Of a stretch of DNA of 64,000 nt, positions 41,459 to 51,318 are shown one piece after another. The stretch is from an uncultured Bacteroidales bacterium (lineage in GTDB: Bacteria > Bacteroidota > Bacteroidia > Bacteroidales > Paludibacteraceae), in the NCBI GenBank assembly GCA_902762355.1, contig CACWNR010000003.1, forward strand, positions 124,001 through 188,000. Reading direction: 5' to 3'. The notes below the pieces were generated by a model. The model ran no database searches and was not told the DNA's origin. It was given only the letters and a program-made list of their open reading frames with translations. Each line of letters opens with the position of its first letter. The first letter of the stretch is position 1. A program made the translations under genes and the position numbers.

Positions 41459-41612
41459 GAAAAAAACATATAAAACCCTGATTAATTATTTTAAGTACTA
41501 TGTACTTGTAAGTCTTCGCTCGGATAACTTACTTTTAAATAAATTTAACGTAACTTATCCAATCAAATCCTTATCTCTACCGAGATTAAAATAATTAATC
41601 AGCAAAAACATA
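41459..41612. repeat. Family C palindromic element, copy 1
   Basis: Core 41478-41602 (125 bases). A 17-base perfect outer stem starts CTGATTAATTATTTTAA. Inside are a GTAC hairpin (AAGTACTATGTACTT), GGATAACTTAC facing GTAACTTATCC, CTCGG facing CCGAG, and central AAATAAATTT. AAAAACATA-type A-rich flanks lie on both sides. It lies between dus and the BASS gene. Confidence 0.85.
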
Positions 41613-41624
41613 AAAAATATTTTT

Positions 41625-42764
41625 TTATTCGTTGTTAGTGCCCCACTGAGCGACGATGTCGTCCATGATGGTAAATACCTCTTGGAGGGTGTCGGCGCGG
41701 AGGAGGGCGATGCGGGTTTGCTTGAAGTTATCGAGGCCTTTGAAGACCGGGGATGCCGCAAAATGACGACGGGAATGGACAATGCCTTTGCGTTCGTCGT
41801 TGCCACACCAGGTAATGGAAGCAAGGACGTGTTCCTTCAGAACAGCGACTTTTTCTTCCATTGACCGCGGCGGAGCCGCTGTAAGACCGGCTGCGCCTGT
41901 AAGACCGTTACACTGTAAGACCGGCTTCTGGCCTGTAAGATAATCGCGCATCTCGGCGAAGAGCCAGGGGGCACCGAATGTGGCGCGGCCGACCATGATG
42001 GCGTCCACGCCGTAACGATCGAAACATTCTTTCGCGCGCTCGGGTGTACACACGTCCCCGTTCCCTATGATAGGTATGTGTATGCGCGGGTTGGACTTGA
42101 CTTCGCCGATGAGTGTCCAGTCGGCTTCGCCGCGGTACATCTGGCTGCGCGTACGGCCGTGAATAGCGAGTTCGGTGATGCCGCAATCCTGCAAAGCAAG
42201 AGATAAATCGACGATGAAAGTCGATTTATGACCGGCTTCGCCTGTAAGACCGTTAGCACTGTAAGACCGCTCCGCTGTAAGACCGCTAACGCTGTAAGAT
42301 TTTTGTAAGCCAAGAGGATTTTCTCTTGGAATCAGGTCGTTCTCATCCCATCCGAGGCGGGTTTTGGCGGTGACGGGTGTATGAACAGCATTGACGACAG
42401 CTTTGGTTATCTCGAGCATCTTTGGTACGTCGCGTAGTAGTCCTGCCCCTGCACCTTTGCCGGCGACTTTCTTGACCGGACAGCCGAAATTGATATCGAT
42501 GAAATCGGGTTTGGCGGTCTCCACGATACGTGCAGCTTCCGCCATCGAGTCGGGTTCACGGCCGTAGATCTGGATGGCTACGGGTCGCTCCTCGTCGTGG
42601 ATGGTGAGTTTGCGGGTGGTGGAGGCGATGTCACGCACGAGGGCATCGGCGTTGACGAACTCCGTGTAAACGCGATCCGCTCCGTAACGCTTACATAACG
42701 CTCTAAATGCAGGATCCGTTACATCCTCCATCGGAGCGAGATATAATGGGTATTTATTATTCAT
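41625..42764 (-). CDS. dus: tRNA-dihydrouridine synthase with two repeat-coded inserts
   Basis: 379 residues. TIM-barrel Dus motifs: LYLAPMEDVTDPAFR (FMN), INFGCPVKKVAGKGAGAGLL with catalytic Cys95, IHGRTRSQMYRGEADW, PIIGNGDV and MVGRATFGAPWLF. It reduces uridine to dihydrouridine in tRNA. Two inserts, about residues 153-180 (SYSVSGLTAERSYSANGLTG) and 276-299 (QCNGLTGAAGLTAAPP), come from family B arrays and lie in loops between conserved strands. Confidence 0.92.
   Translation of the reverse strand: MNNKYPLYLAPMEDVTDPAFRALCKRYGADRVYTEFVNADALVRDIASTTRKLTIHDEERPVAIQIYGREPDSMAEAARIVETAKPDFIDINFGCPVKKVAGKGAGAGLLRDVPKMLEITKAVVNAVHTPVTAKTRLGWDENDLIPRENPLGLQKSYSVSGLTAERSYSANGLTGEAGHKSTFIVDLSLALQDCGITELAIHGRTRSQMYRGEADWTLIGEVKSNPRIHIPIIGNGDVCTPERAKECFDRYGVDAIMVGRATFGAPWLFAEMRDYLTGQKPVLQCNGLTGAAGLTAAPPRSMEEKVAVLKEHVLASITWCGNDERKGIVHSRRHFAASPVFKGLDNFKQTRIALLRADTLQEVFTIMDDIVAQWGTNNE
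41863..41942 (-). repeat. Family B array in dus, 3' copy
   Basis: Plus-strand units GACCGCGGCGGAGCCGCTGTAA, GACCGGCTGCGCCTGTAA, GACCGTTACACTGTAA and GACCGGCTTCTGGCCTGTAA. Confidence 0.85.
42231..42308 (-). repeat. Family B array in dus, 5' copy
   Basis: Plus-strand units GACCGGCTTCGCCTGTAA, GACCGTTAGCACTGTAA, GACCGCTCCGCTGTAA, GACCGCTAACGCTGTAA, then GATTTTTGTAA. GACCG and TGTAA are fixed; the middle varies as a small self-complementary arm. Confidence 0.9.
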
Positions 42765-42770
42765 TAAAAG

Positions 42771-42927
42771 AAAAATTATAATAAAAATAGATGATTGATT
42801 TTTAGTACTACGTACCTATAAGTCTTTGCTTGAATAACTTACCTACAAATAAATTTGATGTAACTTATCCAACCAAAACCTTATTTCTATCGAATTAAAA
42901 TCAATCATCCAAAAACACCAAAAATAC
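42771..42927. repeat. Family C palindromic element, copy 2
   Basis: Core 42790-42909 (120 bases). The 13-base perfect outer stem starts GATGATTGATTTT, different from copy 1 but still fully paired. Inner parts keep TAGTACTACGTAC, AATAACTTAC facing GTAACTTAT, and AAATAAATTT. Between dus and pgpH. Confidence 0.85.
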
Positions 42928-42934
42928 TTTATAT

Positions 42935-44833
42935 TCATTTATTCAGCGTCGGATAGGAGATGCGGTGATGGTTCATGGCGACGAGGCGGGCGGTGAAGAC
43001 ACGGCGGATATCCTCTACATCCTTGAAAGAGAGGGGTGTCTCGGCGAACTGGCCGTCTGCTATCTGGGCATCGATCATCTGGTTGACCACCGCGGCGATA
43101 GAGGCCTCGGTGAACTCGTTGAGGCTACGCGAGCGTGCCTCGATGGCATCCGCCATCATGAGGATGGCTCCTTCTTTGGTACTGGGTTTGAGTCCCGGGT
43201 AGCGGAAGAGCGATTCATCGACTTGCTCTTTCGGATGGGCGTTGCAATAGGTGTTGTAGAAATAGCGCACGAGGGACGTACCGTGGTGGGTGGTGATGAA
43301 ATTGATGATCACCTCGGGCAGGTGGTTTCTGCGGGCTATTTTCTCTCCTTCGGTGACATGCGAGATGACCACTTGTGCGGCATCGCGTGGATCCATCTTG
43401 AGGAGCGGGTTCTCCACGCCGGTTTGGTTCTCTACAAAGTAGAGCGGGTCGGTGATTTTACCGATATCGTGGTAGAGTGCGCCCGTTCGCACGAGCAGGG
43501 CATTGGCGCCGATGGCCTTGGCAGCTTCGGCCGCGAGGTTAGAGACTTGCATCGAGTGCTGGAAGGTACCCGGTGCACGTTCGGCGAGCGTGTGGAGCAG
43601 TTCGGAGTTGATATCCGTCAGTTCGACAAGGGTGATCGACGAGATAAAACGGAAGAGTTTCTCGAAGCCGTAGATCAGTCCGTAGCAGCCGACGGTCAGC
43701 AGACCGCAGATTGCGAAATGGAGGTACATCCAGGGGTCGATAGACGACCAAGCGCCGGTCTGGGCGAAGGTGATGGCCGTGTAAGCGATCGTCTGGGCGA
43801 GCAGAATCCACGCGGCTGTCTGAACGAGTTGTGCGCGGCGGGTCATGTCGCCGAGCGAGGAGATAGCTACCATGCCGACGACGATCTGGATAAAGAAGAA
43901 CTCTACCGGCGCAGGCACCACGATGGACGTGATGAGGATGGTGGTGAAGTGCAGGAAAAGGGCCGTTCGGGAGTCAAAGAAGACCCGCGTCAGGATGGGT
44001 ACCCAAGCGAAGGGAATGAGATAGACGGACAGGCCGAATCGGAGTGCCAGGCATGCGAGCGCAATGACGATAAACATCTGGAGCGCAAAGAAAAGCACCG
44101 TGGAGGTGGAGCGCAGATACGAGCGGCGGAAGACGTAGAGGTACACCACAAAGAGGCAGAGGAAGAGCGTAACCAGCATCGCCTCGCCGAGGAAGGAGAG
44201 GGTGCGCTGTTTGTTACCCAGCGACTCGTCGTCGTACGCACGGCGGAGGGACTGGAGGATCTGGTAATTGCGCTCGGTGACCACCTCACCTTTGTCGATG
44301 ATCTTCTCGCCCTTCTGGACGAGTCCCTGTGTGGGTGAGAGGGTGGCCAACAGTTTGGCTTTTAACTCTTCGGTGCGGACGGTGTCGAGCACAAGGTTGG
44401 TGGCGCAGTCGTAACCGAAGCGCTTGTGCGCGGTCATGGGCGTATAGACCTCGGACAGCGGGTATTTCTTCTGCTGAAGCGTGATCCGCGTGTAGCCTTC
44501 GGCCTGCAACCAGTCCATGGTCTCGAGGGAGACGACCTTCACTTCGCGCTGCACGCGCGGGATATAATTAAAGATAGGTGCGAAGGTGGAGAGCAGTTGG
44601 GTCTGCTCCTTGGCCAGCTGGTCGTCGGTCTTGTATATGGGAAAATCGAAATCCGCCGTGAGGGTGTTGTAGCCCCAGGGTTTGCCGATCTCGTAATGAT
44701 AGCGGAAGGCGTTGTTGTAGCGCGGAAACATCAGCACGATGACTGCCGCGAGGAGGGCAAAGACGCTTAGGCGCAAAATCGTTTTCGCGTATTTGTAATT
44801 TGTGATTTGTGATGTAAGATTTGAGATTTCCAT
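42935..44833 (-). CDS. pgpH: 7TMR-HD cyclic-di-AMP phosphodiesterase (PgpH-like)
   Basis: 632 residues. An N-terminal helix (about 20-38), an extracytoplasmic 7TMR-HD domain (about 45-215), a membrane block of seven helices (about 215-410) and a cytoplasmic HD domain with RTGALYHDIGK near residue 475 and EGAILMMADAIEARSR. Members hydrolyse c-di-AMP. The first 15 residues (MEISNLTSQITNYKY) come from a heptanucleotide array. The gene begins just after the GGGPS-TadA fusion stop. Confidence 0.88.
   Translation of the reverse strand: MEISNLTSQITNYKYAKTILRLSVFALLAAVIVLMFPRYNNAFRYHYEIGKPWGYNTLTADFDFPIYKTDDQLAKEQTQLLSTFAPIFNYIPRVQREVKVVSLETMDWLQAEGYTRITLQQKKYPLSEVYTPMTAHKRFGYDCATNLVLDTVRTEELKAKLLATLSPTQGLVQKGEKIIDKGEVVTERNYQILQSLRRAYDDESLGNKQRTLSFLGEAMLVTLFLCLFVVYLYVFRRSYLRSTSTVLFFALQMFIVIALACLALRFGLSVYLIPFAWVPILTRVFFDSRTALFLHFTTILITSIVVPAPVEFFFIQIVVGMVAISSLGDMTRRAQLVQTAAWILLAQTIAYTAITFAQTGAWSSIDPWMYLHFAICGLLTVGCYGLIYGFEKLFRFISSITLVELTDINSELLHTLAERAPGTFQHSMQVSNLAAEAAKAIGANALLVRTGALYHDIGKITDPLYFVENQTGVENPLLKMDPRDAAQVVISHVTEGEKIARRNHLPEVIINFITTHHGTSLVRYFYNTYCNAHPKEQVDESLFRYPGLKPSTKEGAILMMADAIEARSRSLNEFTEASIAAVVNQMIDAQIADGQFAETPLSFKDVEDIRRVFTARLVAMNHHRISYPTLNK
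44791..44831 (-). repeat. Heptanucleotide array (family A) at the pgpH start
   Basis: Plus-strand ATTTGTA, ATTTGTG, ATTTGTG, ATGTAAG, ATTTGAG, ATTTCC. It includes the region just inside the pgpH start codon. Confidence 0.82.
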
Positions 44834-46042
44834 TTATCGCTTGGATTTAAAAAATTCTTGTATAAGGGCGCGGCATTCGTCTTCGAGGACACCTGCCGTG
44901 ACGGTTGCTTTGGGATGGAAGACGCGTGGCGCATAGGTGGCGTAGCCGCGCTTGGGATCGGGTGCGCCATAGACGATCCGGCTTATCTGCGCCCAACCGA
45001 TGGCACCTGCGCACATCGGGCAGGGTTCGACGGTGACGTAAAGCGTGGCGTCGGGGAGGTATTTGCCGCCGAGTGTCTGAGTTGCCGCCGTGATGGCCTG
45101 CATCTCGGCATGCGCTGTGACGTCCTCGAGAGTCTCGGTGAGGTTATGTCCGCGGCCGATGATTTGGTTTTGGGAGACGATGACACAGCCGATGGGGATC
45201 TCGTTAGAGGATAGCGCTTTATGCGCCTCGCTTAAAGCGATTCGCATATATCGCTCATCCGCTGACCGCTCTGCTGTAAGACCGGCTTCGCCTGTAGGAC
45301 CGCTAACGCTGTAGGACCGTTTCACTGTAAGAAATTTTTGTAGGTCTTCGGGGTGGGACTCGAAGTGGTTACCGATGACGACGATATCAGCGCCGGCGGC
45401 GTAGGCGGCGTTCATCGCTTCGGGTGTACGGATCCCACCGCCCACGATGAGGGTGACGGAAGTATGGGAGCGCACGGCCTGGATGATGTCGGTGGAGACG
45501 GGATGGATAGCACCTGAACCAGCCTCAAGGTAGATGGCTTTTTTACCCATCAGTTCGGCTGCGATGCAGGTGTCCACGATCGTGTCAATGTTGGTTGGAT
45601 CGAGGGGCTTAGTGCCCGTAACACGCATAGTAGAGGTCTCTACTCCGCCATCGATCAGAATGTAGGCGGTTGGGATGAAATCTATATGCGATTCATGAAT
45701 GCGCCGCGCGGACTTAATCTGCTGATTTATAAGGTATTCCGGGTTGTTTCCAGAGAGTAACGAGAGAAAAAGTACGCCATCAGCTTCCGGGGTAAATTGT
45801 GACGAATTTCCGGGGAAGAGGATGATGGGGATTTTTGATTTGTAATTTGTGATTTTTGATTTAAGGGCACGAACAAAGTCCGTGGTGTCGCCGCCGGTGG
45901 AACCGCCGACGAAGATATAGTCCGGATGCGACTCTTCGGTAATGGGAAGGGCATCCAGATTTGCTTTCTCCGGATCCAGAAGCAGGGCGAGTTTTTTATC
46001 GCCCAAGATTGGTCGATGCAATATGTTATCGGTTATTTCCAT
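44834..46042 (-). CDS. Fusion of geranylgeranylglyceryl phosphate synthase (PcrB/GGGPS) and tRNA adenosine deaminase TadA
   Basis: 402 residues. Residues 1-238 are a GGGPS-like TIM barrel (LLLDPEKANL, DYIFVGGSTGG, FPGNSSQ, KAIYLEAGSGA, LIVGGGIRT); 261-402 are TadA (MRIALSEAHKAL, zinc ligands HAE 311-313 and PCPMC 340-344). TadA makes inosine-34 in tRNA-Arg. The linker (about 239-260, RSYSVSGPTGEAGLTAERS) is exactly a family B array, so the repeat seems to have joined two genes. A heptanucleotide array adds SKITNYKSKI at 62-71. Confidence 0.9.
   Translation of the reverse strand: MEITDNILHRPILGDKKLALLLDPEKANLDALPITEESHPDYIFVGGSTGGDTTDFVRALKSKITNYKSKIPIILFPGNSSQFTPEADGVLFLSLLSGNNPEYLINQQIKSARRIHESHIDFIPTAYILIDGGVETSTMRVTGTKPLDPTNIDTIVDTCIAAELMGKKAIYLEAGSGAIHPVSTDIIQAVRSHTSVTLIVGGGIRTPEAMNAAYAAGADIVVIGNHFESHPEDLQKFLTVKRSYSVSGPTGEAGLTAERSADERYMRIALSEAHKALSSNEIPIGCVIVSQNQIIGRGHNLTETLEDVTAHAEMQAITAATQTLGGKYLPDATLYVTVEPCPMCAGAIGWAQISRIVYGAPDPKRGYATYAPRVFHPKATVTAGVLEDECRALIQEFFKSKR
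45262..45343 (-). repeat. Family B array at the GGGPS-TadA junction
   Basis: Plus-strand units GACCGCTCTGCTGTAA, GACCGGCTTCGCCTGTAG, GACCGCTAACGCTGTAG, GACCGTTTCACTGTAA, then GAAATTTTTGTAG. The frame stays open and links the two enzymes. Confidence 0.9.
45831..45864 (-). repeat. Heptanucleotide array (family A) in the GGGPS part
   Basis: Units ATTTTTG, ATTTGTA, ATTTGTG, ATTTTTG, ATTTAAG. Confidence 0.85.
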
Positions 46043-46605
46043 TCGAAGGTTTCTACCATTTTGATGACATCTTTGCGGAGGTACTCATAGACCGGGGCAA
46101 GCGAGTCGGCGTTCGGCGGGCAGTTACAATAGACCGATGCACGGAAGAAATGGTTCGTGGAATCGGTCACGAAGAACTGGCATGACGAGGCGGTATTGCC
46201 CTCCAGATCGAAGAGTACTCCATAGACGCGGACCTCGGGATGGGTGTAGTCGCGTTCGGGTATCGCCGAAGCGAAGGAAGCGTTGCGGTACACGAACTCG
46301 AGTGCATCGTTGGTCAGTTCGCGCAGGTTGTTATGGACGGGTTTGTACGAGCAGTGGATCGTGGCGTCCAACGCCGGGTAATAGAGGTTGATCCAGTAGG
46401 GCTCGGCAACATCCGTACGGGGGCGAACTACCGCATTTTGCGAGAGGGCAAAAGCATAGGGGTAACTTGGATACTGCGCCTCGAAAGGCACATAGGCCGT
46501 GTCCGGCGGGGTAATCCGATAATAGCCGTAAGGCCGCGGAGAAGATACTTTTCCACAAGATGCCAAAGCCAAACCGATTGCTATAATTGCCAATATTTTT
46601 CGCAT
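46033..46605 (-). CDS. gldD: Gliding motility/type IX secretion lipoprotein GldD
   Basis: 190 residues from MRKILAIIAIGLALASCGK with a lipobox (LALASC). GldD features: RPYGYYRITPPD, PYAFALSQNA, INLYYPALDATIHCSYK, VYGVLFDLEGNTASSCQFFVTDSTNHFFRAS and CPPNADSLAPVYEYLRKD. GldD is needed for gliding and linked to type IX secretion in Bacteroidetes. An ATG three codons earlier is an alternative. It overlaps the fusion gene by 10 bases. Confidence 0.9.
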   Translation of the reverse strand: MRKILAIIAIGLALASCGKVSSPRPYGYYRITPPDTAYVPFEAQYPSYPYAFALSQNAVVRPRTDVAEPYWINLYYPALDATIHCSYKPVHNNLRELTNDALEFVYRNASFASAIPERDYTHPEVRVYGVLFDLEGNTASSCQFFVTDSTNHFFRASVYCNCPPNADSLAPVYEYLRKDVIKMVETFEWK

Positions 46606-46622
46606 TCTCTGCATTTTGGTCA

Positions 46623-46653
46623 CAAAGGTAGTCAAAAGAAATGAGATACACAA
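46623..46653 (-). promoter_or_regulatory. Promoter of the gldD operon
   Basis: Minus strand TTG (46653-46651), 20 bases, TACCTTTG (46630-46623), about 18 bases before the start codon. Confidence 0.8.
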
Positions 46654-46711
46654 CTATTTTCGTACTTTTTGAACAAAATCGCACTTTTTCCTAAATAAAA
46701 TGCGCGCGCGC

Positions 46712-46742
46712 TTGCATATATAAAAATAAAGTTGTATATTTG
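46712..46742 (+). promoter_or_regulatory. Promoter of manC and the glycogen cluster
   Basis: TTG (46712-46714), 20 bases, TATATTTG (46735-46742), 39 bases before the ATG. Divergent from gldD. Confidence 0.8.
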
Positions 46743-46780
46743 CACGATTTTTGGGAAGACCATAGAAAACACACAAACAC

Positions 46781-47896
46781 ATGACAGAGAAACAAAACAA
46801 TTATTGCGTGATCATGGCGGGCGGCGTCGGCAGTCGATTCTGGCCGTTCAGTAGAGCAGATAAGCCGAAGCAATTCCTGGATTTCTTCGGCACGGGTCGC
46901 AGTTTGCTGCAGATGACGGTCGATCGTTTTCGTCCGATCGTTCCGATAGAGAACATGTTCATCGTGACGAATGTAGCGTATAAGCAAACGATCTTGGATC
47001 AGATTCCGGATATCAGTGAGGGGCAGATTTTATGCGAGCCGGCACGTCGTAACACAGCGCCGTGCATTGCATACGCAACCTCCCATATCCGCGCTATCTG
47101 TCTGCGCAAGGCGGGTTTGACGGCAGCTAATCAGGATTGGAGTCGCCCGGAGCTGCAGGTGAATATCGTGGTGGCAGCGAGTGACCATTTGATTTTGGAG
47201 GAAGACAAGTTCCGTCAGACGATCTTGAAGGCGTTTGATTTTGTGAGCAGGAATAAGGCGATCGCTACACTTGGCATGTCCCCTACCCGTCCGGAAACCG
47301 GTTATGGATATATTCAACGTCAGCCGGAAATGTTTGAAGACGGGATTTATCCGGTGAAGACGTTTACGGAGAAGCCGAACTTGGAGATGGCGAAGGTGTT
47401 CTTAGAGAGCGGTGATTTCCTGTGGAATAGCGGTATCTTTATCTGGAATCTGCAGACGATCAGTGAGGCATTCCGGTATCTGCTGCCGGAAGTAGCAGAC
47501 CGATTCAGAGAGGGTGAGTTGCTGATGGGAACGGACAAAGAGGAAGATTTCATTGAGGTGATGTTCCCGAAATGTCCGAACATCTCGATCGACTACGGCA
47601 TCATGGAGAAGGCGGATAACGTCTATGTCATCCCGAGCAGTTTCGGTTGGAGCGATCTGGGCACCTGGGGCTCGTTGTATGAGTTGAGCGAGAAAGACGA
47701 GCACGGCAATGTCAGTCTGCATAGCGAGACGCATTATTATGAGGCGGAAGGAAATATCGTTGTGCTCGAGCCGGGTAAGGTGGCGATCGTGCAGGGCGTG
47801 AATGACATGATTATTGTGGAGGAGCGCGGTGCCCTGCTGGTATGCAAGAAAGCCGAAGAGCAACGGATTAAAGAATTTACAATTAATTTGACTTAA
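46781..47896 (+). CDS. manC: Mannose-1-phosphate guanylyltransferase
   Basis: 371 residues. Nucleotidyltransferase start VIMAGGVGSRFWPFSRADKPKQF, substrate region TRPETGYGYIQ, FTEKPNLEMAK and WNSGIFIWNL. It makes GDP-mannose. Residues about 107-126 (RKAGLTAANQDWSRPELQ) are an insert whose KAGLTAA core resembles family B peptides and may be a decayed copy. It opens the plus-strand glucan cluster. Confidence 0.92.
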   Translation: MTEKQNNYCVIMAGGVGSRFWPFSRADKPKQFLDFFGTGRSLLQMTVDRFRPIVPIENMFIVTNVAYKQTILDQIPDISEGQILCEPARRNTAPCIAYATSHIRAICLRKAGLTAANQDWSRPELQVNIVVAASDHLILEEDKFRQTILKAFDFVSRNKAIATLGMSPTRPETGYGYIQRQPEMFEDGIYPVKTFTEKPNLEMAKVFLESGDFLWNSGIFIWNLQTISEAFRYLLPEVADRFREGELLMGTDKEEDFIEVMFPKCPNISIDYGIMEKADNVYVIPSSFGWSDLGTWGSLYELSEKDEHGNVSLHSETHYYEAEGNIVVLEPGKVAIVQGVNDMIIVEERGALLVCKKAEEQRIKEFTINLT

Positions 47897-47912
47897 TATT
47901 AAATCACACATC

Positions 47913-49886
47913 ATGAGTTATCTGAATTTTGACAAGACAGTGCTTGTTAATCTGGAGCGGTCGCTTCAGAAAGAGATGATTCGAACAAACCGTGCAGGTG
48001 TGTACAACTCGACGACGTTGGTTGATTGTAACACGCGTAAGTACCACGGCCAGTTGGTGATGCCGATTCCGGAGTTGGGTGACGACAACTATGTGTTGCT
48101 CAGTTCGCTGGATGAGACGGTTATCCAACACGGTGCGGAGTTCAACTTAGGCTTGCACGAGTACGGCGAGAACCATTTCAGTCCGAACGGACACAAGTAC
48201 ATTCGCGAGTTTGACTGCGAATTGATTTCCCGTACGACGTATCGCGTTGGAGCGATGGTGTTGCAGAAAGAGCGTTTGCTGGTTAGCTTCGAGCCGCGTG
48301 TGCTGATTCGTTACACGCTGTTGGAGAGCGGTAGTCCGACGATTTTGCGTTTCCGTCCGTTCCTGGCGTTCCGTAGCGTGAATGAGTTGACGCACGAGAA
48401 CCCGCTGGCTAATCCGAACATGGAGGATTGCGAGAACGGTCGTTACAACCGCATGTATCCGGGTTTCCCGAATCTGTACATGCAGTTCAGCAAAGCCGTT
48501 GAGTATCATCACGACCCGCAGTGGTACAAGGACATCGAGTACCGCAAGGAGCGTGAGCGTGGTTATGCCCACAAGGAGGATCTGCTCGTACCGGGTTATT
48601 TCGAGTTACCGATGAAGAAAGGCGAGAGCGTTATCTTCGCCGGCGGTGTGACCGAGTGCAACACGGCGCAGTTGAAGAACGTTTGGAAGAAAGAGTTGGA
48701 GCGTCGTAACCGCCGCGAGGACATGTTCTCGACGTTGAAGAACAGCGCGAGTCAGTTCTACAAGCGCGAGGGCGACAAGTGCTACCTGTTAGCCGGCTTC
48801 CCGTGGTTCAAAGCGGATGCCCGCAGTACTTTCTTCAGCGTTGCAAGTTGTACGCTGGACATTGATCGTCCGGAGTACTGGGATGCGATCATCAACAAGA
48901 CTGCCATTGACGAGATTCTGAAGTTCATGAGCGGTCGCGGTCATGAGATCAAGATGACGGGTATGGACGAACCGGACGTGCTGTTGTGGTTCATCCGCGC
49001 ATGTCAGAAATACGCGCATAAATATACGGTTCGCGAGGCGGCTGATCTGTACGGCCAGCTCTGTCTGGATATCGTCAACTGGTATCGCAAGCAGAACCAT
49101 CCGCGGGCTAAACTGCATCAGAACGGTTTGCTCTGGGCAGACGGTACGCAACGTCCGGCAACCTGGATGAACGCGACGGAGAACGGTTGGCCCATCACTC
49201 CGCGTACGGGTTATATCGTTGAGTTGAACGCGCTGTGGTACAACGCGATGCGTTTCACGGCCGAGATGCTGCGCGAGTTGGGTAAAGAGACGAGTGCCGA
49301 CCTGATGGAGTATCAGGCAGAGATCTCGAAGGACGCTTTCGTGAAGACGTTCTGGAACGGTCTGTATCTGAACGACTACGTGCTGGACGGATATGAGAAC
49401 CGCGAGGTTCGTCCGAACATGATCTGGGCGGTAGGTCTGCCGTACAGTCCGCTGGACAAGAAACAGCAGAAAGCGGTGGTAGATATCTGTACGAAGGAGT
49501 TGTTGACGCCGAAGGGCTTGCGTTCGTTGAGTCCGAAGAGCGGCAGTTATCGTCCGATGTACACGGGTACGATCAGTCAGCAGGAACGTGAGCGTACGCT
49601 GCATAACGGCGTTGTTTGGCCATCGACCATCACGGCGTATTCGCGTGCGTACATGAACGTGTATAAATACAGCGGTGCGAGCTTCATGGAGCGCCTGTTG
49701 GTGGGCTTCGAGGCCGAGATGAACGAGTTGACGATTGGTACGCTCAATGAGTTCTACGACGGTAACCCGCCTTATAAGGGACACGGCGGTATGAGTAGTG
49801 CACCGAGCGTAGCAGCTGTTATCAGCCTGCTCGATACGCTGAAGAAATACGAGAAAGAACAAGCAGAAAAGGAGGCACAACAATGA
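47913..49886 (+). CDS. Glycogen debranching enzyme, GH133 amylo-alpha-1,6-glucosidase type
   Basis: 657 residues. N-terminal domain (TRKYHGQLVMPIPEL, SSLDETVIQ) and an (alpha/alpha)6 catalytic domain with GFPWFKADARSTF, LLWADGTQRPATWMNATENG, TPRTGYIVELNALWYNAM and HNGVVWPSTITAYSRAY. This matches bacterial GH133 debranching enzymes that cut alpha-1,6 branch points of glycogen. It overlaps the next gene by 4 bases. Confidence 0.9.
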   Translation: MSYLNFDKTVLVNLERSLQKEMIRTNRAGVYNSTTLVDCNTRKYHGQLVMPIPELGDDNYVLLSSLDETVIQHGAEFNLGLHEYGENHFSPNGHKYIREFDCELISRTTYRVGAMVLQKERLLVSFEPRVLIRYTLLESGSPTILRFRPFLAFRSVNELTHENPLANPNMEDCENGRYNRMYPGFPNLYMQFSKAVEYHHDPQWYKDIEYRKERERGYAHKEDLLVPGYFELPMKKGESVIFAGGVTECNTAQLKNVWKKELERRNRREDMFSTLKNSASQFYKREGDKCYLLAGFPWFKADARSTFFSVASCTLDIDRPEYWDAIINKTAIDEILKFMSGRGHEIKMTGMDEPDVLLWFIRACQKYAHKYTVREAADLYGQLCLDIVNWYRKQNHPRAKLHQNGLLWADGTQRPATWMNATENGWPITPRTGYIVELNALWYNAMRFTAEMLRELGKETSADLMEYQAEISKDAFVKTFWNGLYLNDYVLDGYENREVRPNMIWAVGLPYSPLDKKQQKAVVDICTKELLTPKGLRSLSPKSGSYRPMYTGTISQQERERTLHNGVVWPSTITAYSRAYMNVYKYSGASFMERLLVGFEAEMNELTIGTLNEFYDGNPPYKGHGGMSSAPSVAAVISLLDTLKKYEKEQAEKEAQQ

Positions 49887-51145
49887 AAGCGCTAATGTTT
49901 GGTTGGGAGTTTCCTCCCCATATCTTAGGTGGTTTGGGTACCGCCAGTTACGGTTTGACCCGTGGCATGGCCGAGCAACCTGACATGGAAATCACCTTCG
50001 TTATCCCGAAGCCTTGGGGCGATGAGGATCAGTCGTTCTTGAAGATCATCGGTGCGAACAGTGTGCCTGTTGTTTGGAAAGATGTCAATTATGACTACGT
50101 GAAAGAGCGCATGGCGGGTCGCATGAGTCCGGAGGAGTATTATCACCTGCGTGACGGTATCCGTTACGACTACCGTCGTATCGGTACGGACGATCTGGGA
50201 TGTATCGGTTTCTCGGGACGTTATCCGGATAACCTGATCGAGGAGATCGGTAACTACGAGGCCGTGGCTTCAGTGCTGGCACACAGTCTGGACTTCGATA
50301 TCATTCACAGCCACGACTGGTTGACCTATCCGGCGGGTGTGTTCGCTAAACAGATCAGCGGTAAGCCGCTCGTTATCCACGTTCATGCGACCGATTTCGA
50401 CCGTAGCCGCGGTAATGTGAACCCGACCGTTTATGCGATCGAGAAACGCGGTATGGACGAAGCGGATCATATCATGTGCGTAAGTAACCTGACGCGTCGG
50501 ACGGTGATCGAGAAATACGGTCAAGACCCGCGTAAGGTGAGCACGGTGCACAATGCCGTAGAGCCGTTGGCTCATCCGGAAGAGTTCACGAAACCCGAGC
50601 GCAAGGACAAGTTGGTTACTTTCCTGGGTCGTATCACGATGCAGAAGGGACCTGAATACTTCGTTGAAGCCGCAGCCCGTGTGCTGAGCAAGACGGACGG
50701 TGTTCGCTTTGTGATGGCAGGTAGCGGTGACAAGATGGAGGAGATGATCGATCTCGTAGCCAAACGCGGCATCGCCGATAAGTTCCACTTCCCGGGCTTC
50801 ATGCGCGGCAAGCAGGTACAGGAAATGTTAGCGATGAGTGACGTCTATATCATGCCGTCCGTCAGTGAACCGTTCGGTATCAGTCCGCTGGAGGCGATGC
50901 AGGTAGGTTGTCCGTCGATCATCAGTCATCAGTCCGGTTGCGCAGAGATCCTGCAGCACGCGATCAAGACCGACTACTGGGACATCGATGCGATGGCCGA
51001 TGCCATCTACGCGATCGTCAAGTACCCGGCGATGTACAAGAGCCTGCATGAGCTTGGTATGGCCGAGGTGAATAACATCAAGTGGGCCGACGCGGGACTT
51101 AAAGTGCGTCGGATTTATGATGGAGTTATTAACCATACATTGTAA
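49883..51145 (+). CDS. Glycogen synthase-like glycosyltransferase (GT4/GT5 type)
   Basis: 420 residues, GT-B fold: MKALMFGWEFPPHILGGLGTA at the N-terminus, HSHDWLTYPAGVF, TFLGRITMQKGPEYFVEAA and the donor-binding EPFGISPLEAMQVG. Placement between a debranching enzyme and a GH57 enzyme fits glycogen synthase, but the donor (ADP- or UDP-glucose) is not readable. Confidence 0.85.
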   Translation: MKALMFGWEFPPHILGGLGTASYGLTRGMAEQPDMEITFVIPKPWGDEDQSFLKIIGANSVPVVWKDVNYDYVKERMAGRMSPEEYYHLRDGIRYDYRRIGTDDLGCIGFSGRYPDNLIEEIGNYEAVASVLAHSLDFDIIHSHDWLTYPAGVFAKQISGKPLVIHVHATDFDRSRGNVNPTVYAIEKRGMDEADHIMCVSNLTRRTVIEKYGQDPRKVSTVHNAVEPLAHPEEFTKPERKDKLVTFLGRITMQKGPEYFVEAAARVLSKTDGVRFVMAGSGDKMEEMIDLVAKRGIADKFHFPGFMRGKQVQEMLAMSDVYIMPSVSEPFGISPLEAMQVGCPSIISHQSGCAEILQHAIKTDYWDIDAMADAIYAIVKYPAMYKSLHELGMAEVNNIKWADAGLKVRRIYDGVINHTL

Positions 51146-51155
51146 ATCCATAATA

Positions 51156-51310
51156 GAAAAAAACATAAAAAACACTGATTATTTATAAGTACTTCGTACC
51201 TTGAGTCCTTGTTTCGAAAACTTGTTTATAAATAAATTTAACATAACTTTTCCAAACAAACCCTCAACTCTACCGAGTTAATAAATAATCAGCAAAAACA
51301 TAAAAAAATT
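51156..51310. repeat. Family C palindromic element, copy 3
   Basis: Core 51175-51292 (118 bases). The 12-base perfect outer stem starts CTGATTATTTAT. Inner parts keep AAGTACTTCGTAC, GAAAACTTG facing ATAACTTTTC, TTCG facing CGAG, and AAATAAATTT. AAAAACATAAAAA flanks both sides. It lies in the glycogen operon between the synthase and GH57 genes. Confidence 0.85.
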
Positions 51311-51318
51311 CTAAGGTT

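Follow-up and report, generated by a model that had tools for sequence, protein, structure and literature searches.

Cloverleaf-forming intergenic palindromes of rumen Paludibacteraceae look like mobile DNA and are linked to genes for a predicted nuclease of the GxxExxY family

Three intergenic palindromic elements (positions 41478-41602, 42790-42909 and 51175-51292) were studied in a 64,000-nucleotide stretch of DNA from an uncultured Bacteroidales bacterium of the Paludibacteraceae (the window), which is part of contig C3 in a 1.94-Mb metagenome-assembled genome (MAG; 75.9% complete, labelled G000 here). They belong to a family of elements, ~120 nt long, that retain a cloverleaf structure despite free drift of their sequence, and a single DNA strand, the minus strand in the window, is the one that folds. 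The elements look like mobile DNA rather than a cis-acting RNA. With moderate confidence, we interpret the copies as solo ends of a mobile DNA system that resembles the REPtrons of repetitive extragenic palindromic (REP) elements and that would be served by an unrelated nuclease, the GxxExxY protein, which probably moves them.

An earlier note on this DNA had proposed that the three copies form a family, and further copies do exist in relatives: a covariance model built from four copies (R1; its four-row seed was trimmed to similar stems) yielded matches at E≤0.01 in 18 of the 41 genus genomes. This search gave 75 matches with opposite-strand duplicates counted, and at most 14 in one genome (G005). 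A second model (R2) was built on an alignment of 63 rows (A9; 62 distinct, one row opposite-strand). In the own genome its 14 matches, two of which are opposite-strand, fall at 12 distinct places, and at E≤1e-4 it matched three of 99 genomes of the order, the own genome among them. Two order-level matches outside the genus (L346 and L347) were folded only; the one at L347 (1501-1630) is cloverleaf-like, comes from a different family within the order and by eye may adjoin a tRNA gene. A pattern scan yielded 114 stretches, of which 80 were searched with R1, while R2 was run on 54 loci; one element search took in 94 loci, with same-place duplicates omitted by choice. The named matches of the pattern scan place the family mostly in rumen Paludibacteraceae/Bacteroidales, and blastn among relatives was insensitive (9 of 61 genomes).

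All members share an outer stem (P1) of 8-17 bp, a hairpin A, a long arm with 1x1 mismatches and a hairpin B. An AAACATA-type motif recurs in direct orientation in the A-rich flanks on either side of the element, and the GC content of element matches spans 0.16 to 0.60. In the A9 alignment the covariation score was 0.758, as compared to 0.185 after shuffling and at most 0.094 with slid partners. A larger alignment of 118 rows (A10) gave 0.754, 0.188 and at most 0.090, respectively, with 89.4% of the cells paired and changes on both sides in 45 of 45 pairs; fitting this alignment to the structure inflates its pairing and covariation figures, but the slid controls were nonetheless low. The copies are not due to chance, because 18 of 41 genomes match and the A9 covariation is far above its controls. 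Selection on structure, as suggested in the earlier note, is supported, and of the two outcomes by which that note would be refuted, a lack of further copies and a lack of covariation, neither was observed, the covariation being judged against shuffled and slid controls.

In the window all three copies were found again where they had first been noticed, with 78, 78 and 72% identity between copies and with copy 3 (51175-51292) scoring highest of the three in both models. Their outer stems are unlike in sequence and each is perfectly paired over 17, 13 and 12 bp in copies 1, 2 and 3, respectively. The layout described before (a GTAC hairpin, a AAATAAATTT centre and A-rich flanks) was also recovered. 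On the minus strand, copy 1 (41478-41602) consists of P1 (41478-41494 with 41586-41602), hairpin A (41495-41505; GTAC-ATA-GTAC in the minus-strand reading), the long interrupted arm (41509-41573, with the apical AAATAAATTT at 41537-41546) and hairpin B (41574-41585); its left A-rich flank (41460-41477) bears the family-conserved AAACATA motif, which returns in direct orientation in the right flank (41603-41626). Copy 2 (42790-42909, minus strand) has P1 at 42790-42802 and 42897-42909, hairpin A at 42805-42815, the arm at 42817-42884, hairpin B at 42884-42894, and flanks at 42769-42789 and 42910-42931. For copy 3, also on the minus strand, these features are P1 at 51175-51186 and 51281-51292, hairpin A at 51189-51199, the arm at 51201-51267, hairpin B at 51266-51279, and flanks at 51156-51174 and 51293-51311. 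The claim that pairing is kept in the inner arm needs correction for copy 2, where GAATAA/TTATCC is not fully paired; its A.C mismatch on the plus strand is a G.T wobble on the minus strand. Co-directional open reading frames (ORFs) lie on both sides of all three copies. In copies 1 and 2 the strand that folds is also the dusA mRNA strand, and in copy 3 it is the antisense strand.

To assign the fold to a strand we used the 116 rows left after removal of the two opposite-strand rows from A10, as we did for the loop and orientation counts; related copies count as independent in these statistics. When read on the minus strand the paired columns contain 161 G.T and 37 A.C combinations, and when read on the plus strand 37 G.U and 161 A.C. 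The model had been built on the plus strand, and therefore the excess of G.T on the minus strand should not come from the model. The 1x1 loops of the arm (n = 471) comprise, on the minus strand, 276 purine-purine, 152 Watson-Crick, 41 G.T, one A.C and one pyrimidine-pyrimidine combination. In hairpin A the closing pair is C-G in 89 of 116 rows; a triloop is present in 84 rows and is of the GNA type in 57 of these. The closing pair of hairpin B is C-G in 102 of 116 rows, and its loop is GNA or GNNA in 75 of 116. C-GNA-G loops are very stable DNA mini-hairpins, the GNA triloop being a DNA-type loop. Mini-hairpins of this kind are treated in general terms in the accessible part of PMC10527192. 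A positive GC skew of the top strand at 79 of 116 elements was not used as a replication-strand signal, since it is confounded with gene orientation.

The same observations have to be weighed for a structured RNA that acts in mRNA stability or regulation, was spread by a mobile element and was retained for its function. Very strong covariation and a defined folding strand would be expected of such an RNA, and purine-purine mismatches and G..A loops fit RNA too. Gene orientation also speaks for it: the elements lie between co-directional ORFs in 80 cases, between divergent ORFs in 12 and between convergent ORFs in none (0/92; 24 more lack an ORF on one side), as compared to 155 co-directional, 22 divergent and 38 convergent ORF pairs (38/215) without an element in the element-bearing loci (P = 6e-7). 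The latter control replaced a broader one (82 convergent of 399), which drew on the dusA and GH57 loci of many relatives. The elements are therefore always beside a gene start. Of the 80 co-directional sites, however, 32 have the fold on the mRNA strand and 48 on the template, and the fold therefore has no fixed relation to transcription. G.U accounts for 3.4% of the pairs on the folding strand versus 8.9% in 28 tRNAs of the retrieved sequences, and in the window Rfam matched only the tmRNA and tRNAs at the gathering score, with no family for the element. What marks the fold as DNA here is the scarcity of G.U pairs, the type of mismatch and the variable orientation relative to transcription. 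Together with the presence/absence insertions described below, these results make the RNA explanation improbable, and the control of mRNA stability that the earlier note had listed as an alternative is not upheld.

Evidence for insertion was obtained at two junctions. The GH57 gene downstream of copy 3 was found in 37 of the 41 genomes of the genus, and its upstream junction could be read in 30, in all of which the same glycosyltransferase gene is the upstream neighbour. The element was present at this junction in G000 alone, while the other 29 genomes have gaps of 13-99 bp. The GH57 protein of the closest relative is 95% identical. The second case lies 8 kb beyond the window, where a composite of two elements enclosing a GxxExxY gene forms an ~840-bp insertion between panD and tgt. 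These two genes are contiguous, without the composite, in 36 of 40 other genomes, the remaining four being split or partial matches, and by eye the panD stop overlaps the tgt start in G035, G031 and G029. The insertion sites are tightly packed gene junctions, which overlap in three sampled relatives. Both G000 and G002 bear elements on either side of dusA, with the same orientation but unlike sequences; none was seen by eye at dusA in 23 other loci, some of which are cut by a contig end or have other neighbours. Transfer of dusA as a cassette was rejected because the identity of dusA DNA between G000 and G002 is ordinary, and integron-like cassettes seem unlikely, as the flanks are direct instead of inverted and the flanked genes look resident by eye. 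As a separate observation, the same gene junctions of relatives bear short tandem repeats, for example CCATTTGGTCATTTA or GTTTAAAGTTTAAAG (L129-L157, L098-L123).

The earlier note had also considered a mobile palindrome of the type of a miniature inverted-repeat transposable element (MITE). The mobility in this proposal stands, while the conserved terminal inverted repeats of a MITE do not, as the outer stems differ between copies and only their pairing is kept. An ordinary MITE derived from an insertion sequence with a DDE transposase and terminal inverted repeats would explain short intergenic palindromes, insertion polymorphism and gene-less derivatives. Stems that vary while the structure is kept are the opposite of conserved transposase-binding termini, though, and the single-strand asymmetry speaks against this origin too, which we regard as very improbable. 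Inspection by eye of copies 2 and 3 and of panD-tgt showed no consistent target-site duplication.

The GxxExxY gene emerged unsought as the commonest ORF family near elements, being present at 12 of 109 loci in 11 places; the next families were found at 8, 7 and 7 loci. The 8-locus family is a mutase whose gene lies beside a number of these GxxExxY genes as well as two canonical ones. We found 28 GxxExxY genes in 16 of the 41 genomes of the genus, 17 of which were lower-scoring (element-type) and 11 higher-scoring (canonical). An R2 element was located within 1.5 kb of 13 of the 17 element-type genes (E 2e-19 to 1e-3) versus none of the 11 canonical genes (P = 7e-5), where 0.3% would be expected near a random site. 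Element-type genes were present in 10 of the 18 genomes with elements versus 2 of the 23 without (P = 0.0017); in this count G001 was scored by a remnant, and G007, one of the two, has an R2 element beside its gene. These P-values, like the one given below for flanks outside the genus, ignore kinship among copies. In a tree of 29 GxxExxY proteins the linked ones fall in one clade (support 96/91), although this labelled clade takes in three genes without an R2 match and leaves out two partial ones, so that a single origin is partly a matter of label choice.

Some neighbouring genes recur as well. The two 7-locus ORF families were seen at L060, L070, L075, L082, L178, L195, L217, L074, L213 and L227. 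Linked and canonical GxxExxY genes adjoin a methylmalonyl-CoA-mutase-like gene, perhaps a hot spot, at L281, L282, L284, L291, L278 and L280. In two species (L283, L290) a GxxExxY gene precedes a rimO-like gene, with a neighbouring ORF family common to both.

A census of element pairs at one threshold (E≤1e-4), with opposite-strand duplicates removed, covered 131 elements in 96 loci, 150 of 157 matches being in the alignment. Neighbouring elements were arranged tail-to-tail in 18 pairs, of which six were wide and 12 close, with a spacing of 58-131 bp; one of the close pairs is in the own genome. Head-to-head pairs numbered five, all at least 554 bp apart, and same-direction pairs 12. The GxxExxY gene was inside five of the six wide tail-to-tail pairs (L058, L201, L187, L041, L022), and the sixth (L065) holds a gene for a secreted protein that is found beside GxxExxY in L022. 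A further pair, at L192, was left uncounted as its left element was recognised by eye only. The family thus shows inverted doublets and a gene between inverted copies, as REPtrons do, in addition to a strand-specific fold with conserved mismatches. Paired elements also enclose genes for a secreted protein of the repeat type and for a small membrane protein (L022 226-957, L065 7576-8592, L041 1026-1500).

By sequence and structural model, GxxExxY is a PD-(D/E)XK protein whose D-E-K site is intact and for which nuclease activity is predicted. The four proteins tested scored 97-105 bits with TIGR04256 (cut-off 35) and 97-106 bits with PF13366 PDDEXK_3 (cut-off 22). Residues D82, E95 and K97 do not vary among the 29 rows, nor do the name-giving E and Y; the element-type proteins read E-C-K where 12 of 13 others read E-L-K, and F replaces the G of the motif in 10 of 16 element-type proteins. 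The AlphaFold model had a mean predicted local distance difference test score (pLDDT) of 95.2. A Foldseek search of this model against the PDB gave 4ic1 (SSO0001; E 2e-4), which we take to be a Cas4 nuclease, as the best match, followed by the Holliday-junction resolvase Hjc (3e-3), all matches being weak with template modelling (TM) scores of 0.4-0.5; a PDB sequence search found no match at E≤1. A fold that resembles those of branched-DNA nucleases, next to DNA that would itself branch, is suggestive only. In the literature covered, with few subscription papers or bioRxiv preprints, we found no function for GxxExxY, the accessible parts of the sources mentioning it with reverse transcriptases and a virus genome, and no mention of PDDEXK_3. 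Among the matches listed for palindromic repeats of Bacteroidales or Bacteroidetes there was nothing similar to the present elements.

The GxxExxY family extends far beyond the genus: of 148 Bacteroidota genomes sampled, 73 had a match at E≤1e-10, with up to 10 genes per genome. We compared the flanks of GxxExxY genes outside the genus with those of other ORFs in the same loci, using looser mismatch scoring (52 loci tried and four skipped; two truncated loci had been excluded beforehand). The flanks were mutually complementary above the 95% cross-locus null for 31 of 48 GxxExxY genes versus 6 of 62 control ORFs (P = 1e-9) and above the 99% null for 14 of 48 versus 4 of 62; a stricter first test gave 7 of 30 versus 3 of 49 at the 99% null. 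Direct similarity of the flanks was likewise raised (18 of 48 above their own 99% null), as would be expected if whole palindromes lay on both sides. An arm at L359 reads TCCACAAATTACACAAATTAGCACAAA. Near the GxxExxY genes of other genera the R2 cloverleaf was found at none of 24 loci, and only short inverted palindromes were present.

We envisage that the cloverleaf forms in single-stranded DNA, either during replication or repair or in an excised intermediate, that the GxxExxY nuclease would recognise and cut the folded ends, and that gene-less pairs and solo elements would be non-autonomous passengers of GxxExxY. A more general proposal, which we advance tentatively and with confidence a little short of even, is that GxxExxY proteins serve as enzymes for a new class of DNA mobile elements. 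In such a class a PD-(D/E)XK nuclease would act on folded single-stranded palindromic ends and spread solo or paired palindromes over intergenic regions, and the rumen Paludibacteraceae would have evolved four-way cloverleaf ends in which sequence is free and shape is kept.

A number of observations weigh against a REPtron-like system served by GxxExxY. Association is not activity, and GxxExxY could be cargo; moreover, a PD-(D/E)XK enzyme that joins DNA unaided would be unusual. Four of the 17 element-type genes have no R2 match. Common flanking ORFs reduce the 17 genes to seven neighbourhoods, and although each contains at least one linked gene, the linked genes in one neighbourhood may represent one inherited insertion. 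An element-type GxxExxY match is absent from 8 of the 18 element-bearing genomes (G002, G005, G011, G014, G021, G031, G033 and G036, all of them MAGs), including the genome richest in matches, and in G001 the gene was seen as a 35-aa remnant only. The dependence among related copies in the strand statistics and the lack of an established target-site duplication count on the same side, and the number of further pair types in A10 (144) was not above that in shuffles (144.7; 311 of 500).

Part of this evidence would be accommodated if another enzyme moved the elements and GxxExxY were no more than cargo, or a selfish gene, frequently carried between two of them. Such an explanation is supported by the eight element-bearing genomes without an element-type match, by the further ORF families that recur near elements and by the other genes between paired elements, namely the secreted-protein gene of L065 and the small membrane-protein gene beside GxxExxY in L041. 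It is less compatible with the rank of GxxExxY as the commonest family near elements and with the inverted palindromes that flank distant GxxExxY genes. At E≤1e-5 the REP transposase family Y1_Tnp (PF01797) had matches in 4 of the 41 genus genomes, none of which is among the 18 element-bearing ones, with the reservation that MAGs are incomplete. We therefore consider a different mover unlikely, though less so than the RNA or MITE explanations.

If GxxExxY indeed moves the elements, a large family hitherto named by its motif alone would gain a role, a class of intergenic palindromes in Bacteroidota would be accounted for, and the REP-type arrangement of palindromes with a dedicated enzyme would have arisen a second time with an unrelated nuclease. 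The results also imply that textbook covariation may mark a DNA fold instead of an RNA.

A different type of repeat, TGTAAGACCG, occurs as in-frame copies inside coding genes of the window, at 41882-41937 and 42227-42299 (both in dusA) and at 45264-45332 (in the ORF at 44834-46042), and encodes SYSVSGLTAERSYSANGLTGEAG; the palindromic elements of Rickettsia are comparable in-gene repeats. Residues ~146-180 of the dusA product have no match in many relatives. By eye, the minus-strand ORF at 44834-46042 contains PcrB/GGGP-synthase-like and TadA-like deaminase parts that are seemingly joined via this repeat, and the spacer between two paired elements of another species contains a TGTAAGACCG-type repeat (L086 1684-1815).

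Several known systems share traits with the cloverleaf elements. The bcr1 repeat of the Bacillus cereus group is likewise a structured and apparently mobile intergenic repeat, of ~150 bp; to our knowledge neither a partner gene nor a strand-resolved cloverleaf has been described for bcr1. Elements of the IS200/IS605 type also have folded single-stranded ends and strand specificity, according to the accessible part of PMC8266576, but they employ a Y1 transposase, which is without a match in the 18 element-bearing genomes, and the ends described here are cloverleafs in inverted pairs. The closest resemblance is to REP elements, including their bacterial interspersed mosaic elements (BIMEs) and their inverted doublets (REPINs), with the associated RAYT (TnpA-REP) gene. 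In the parts of the REP literature available to us, REP elements plus a TnpA-REP gene are called REPtrons (PMC8266576) and the inverted doublets are regarded as the mobile unit (PMC3116915). Dispersed intergenic palindromes, an inverted doublet unit, a dedicated adjoining gene, many solo copies and a strand-specific single-stranded fold with fixed mismatches are common to both systems. The likeness to REP or to enterobacterial repetitive intergenic consensus (ERIC) sequences drawn in the earlier note therefore holds for behaviour but does not extend to membership in REP. The REP unit is a 20-50-nt hairpin preceded by GTAG and partnered by an HuH/Y1 enzyme, whereas the unit here is a ~120-nt cloverleaf, with A-rich AAACATA-type flanks instead of a GTAG at the stem base (by eye), beside a PD-(D/E)XK protein. 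Unlike in REP, copies have structure in common more than sequence, and GxxExxY reaches 10 genes per genome where TnpA-REP is mostly single-copy (PMC8266576, in the part available). By analogy, the system behaves like a REPtron without being one.

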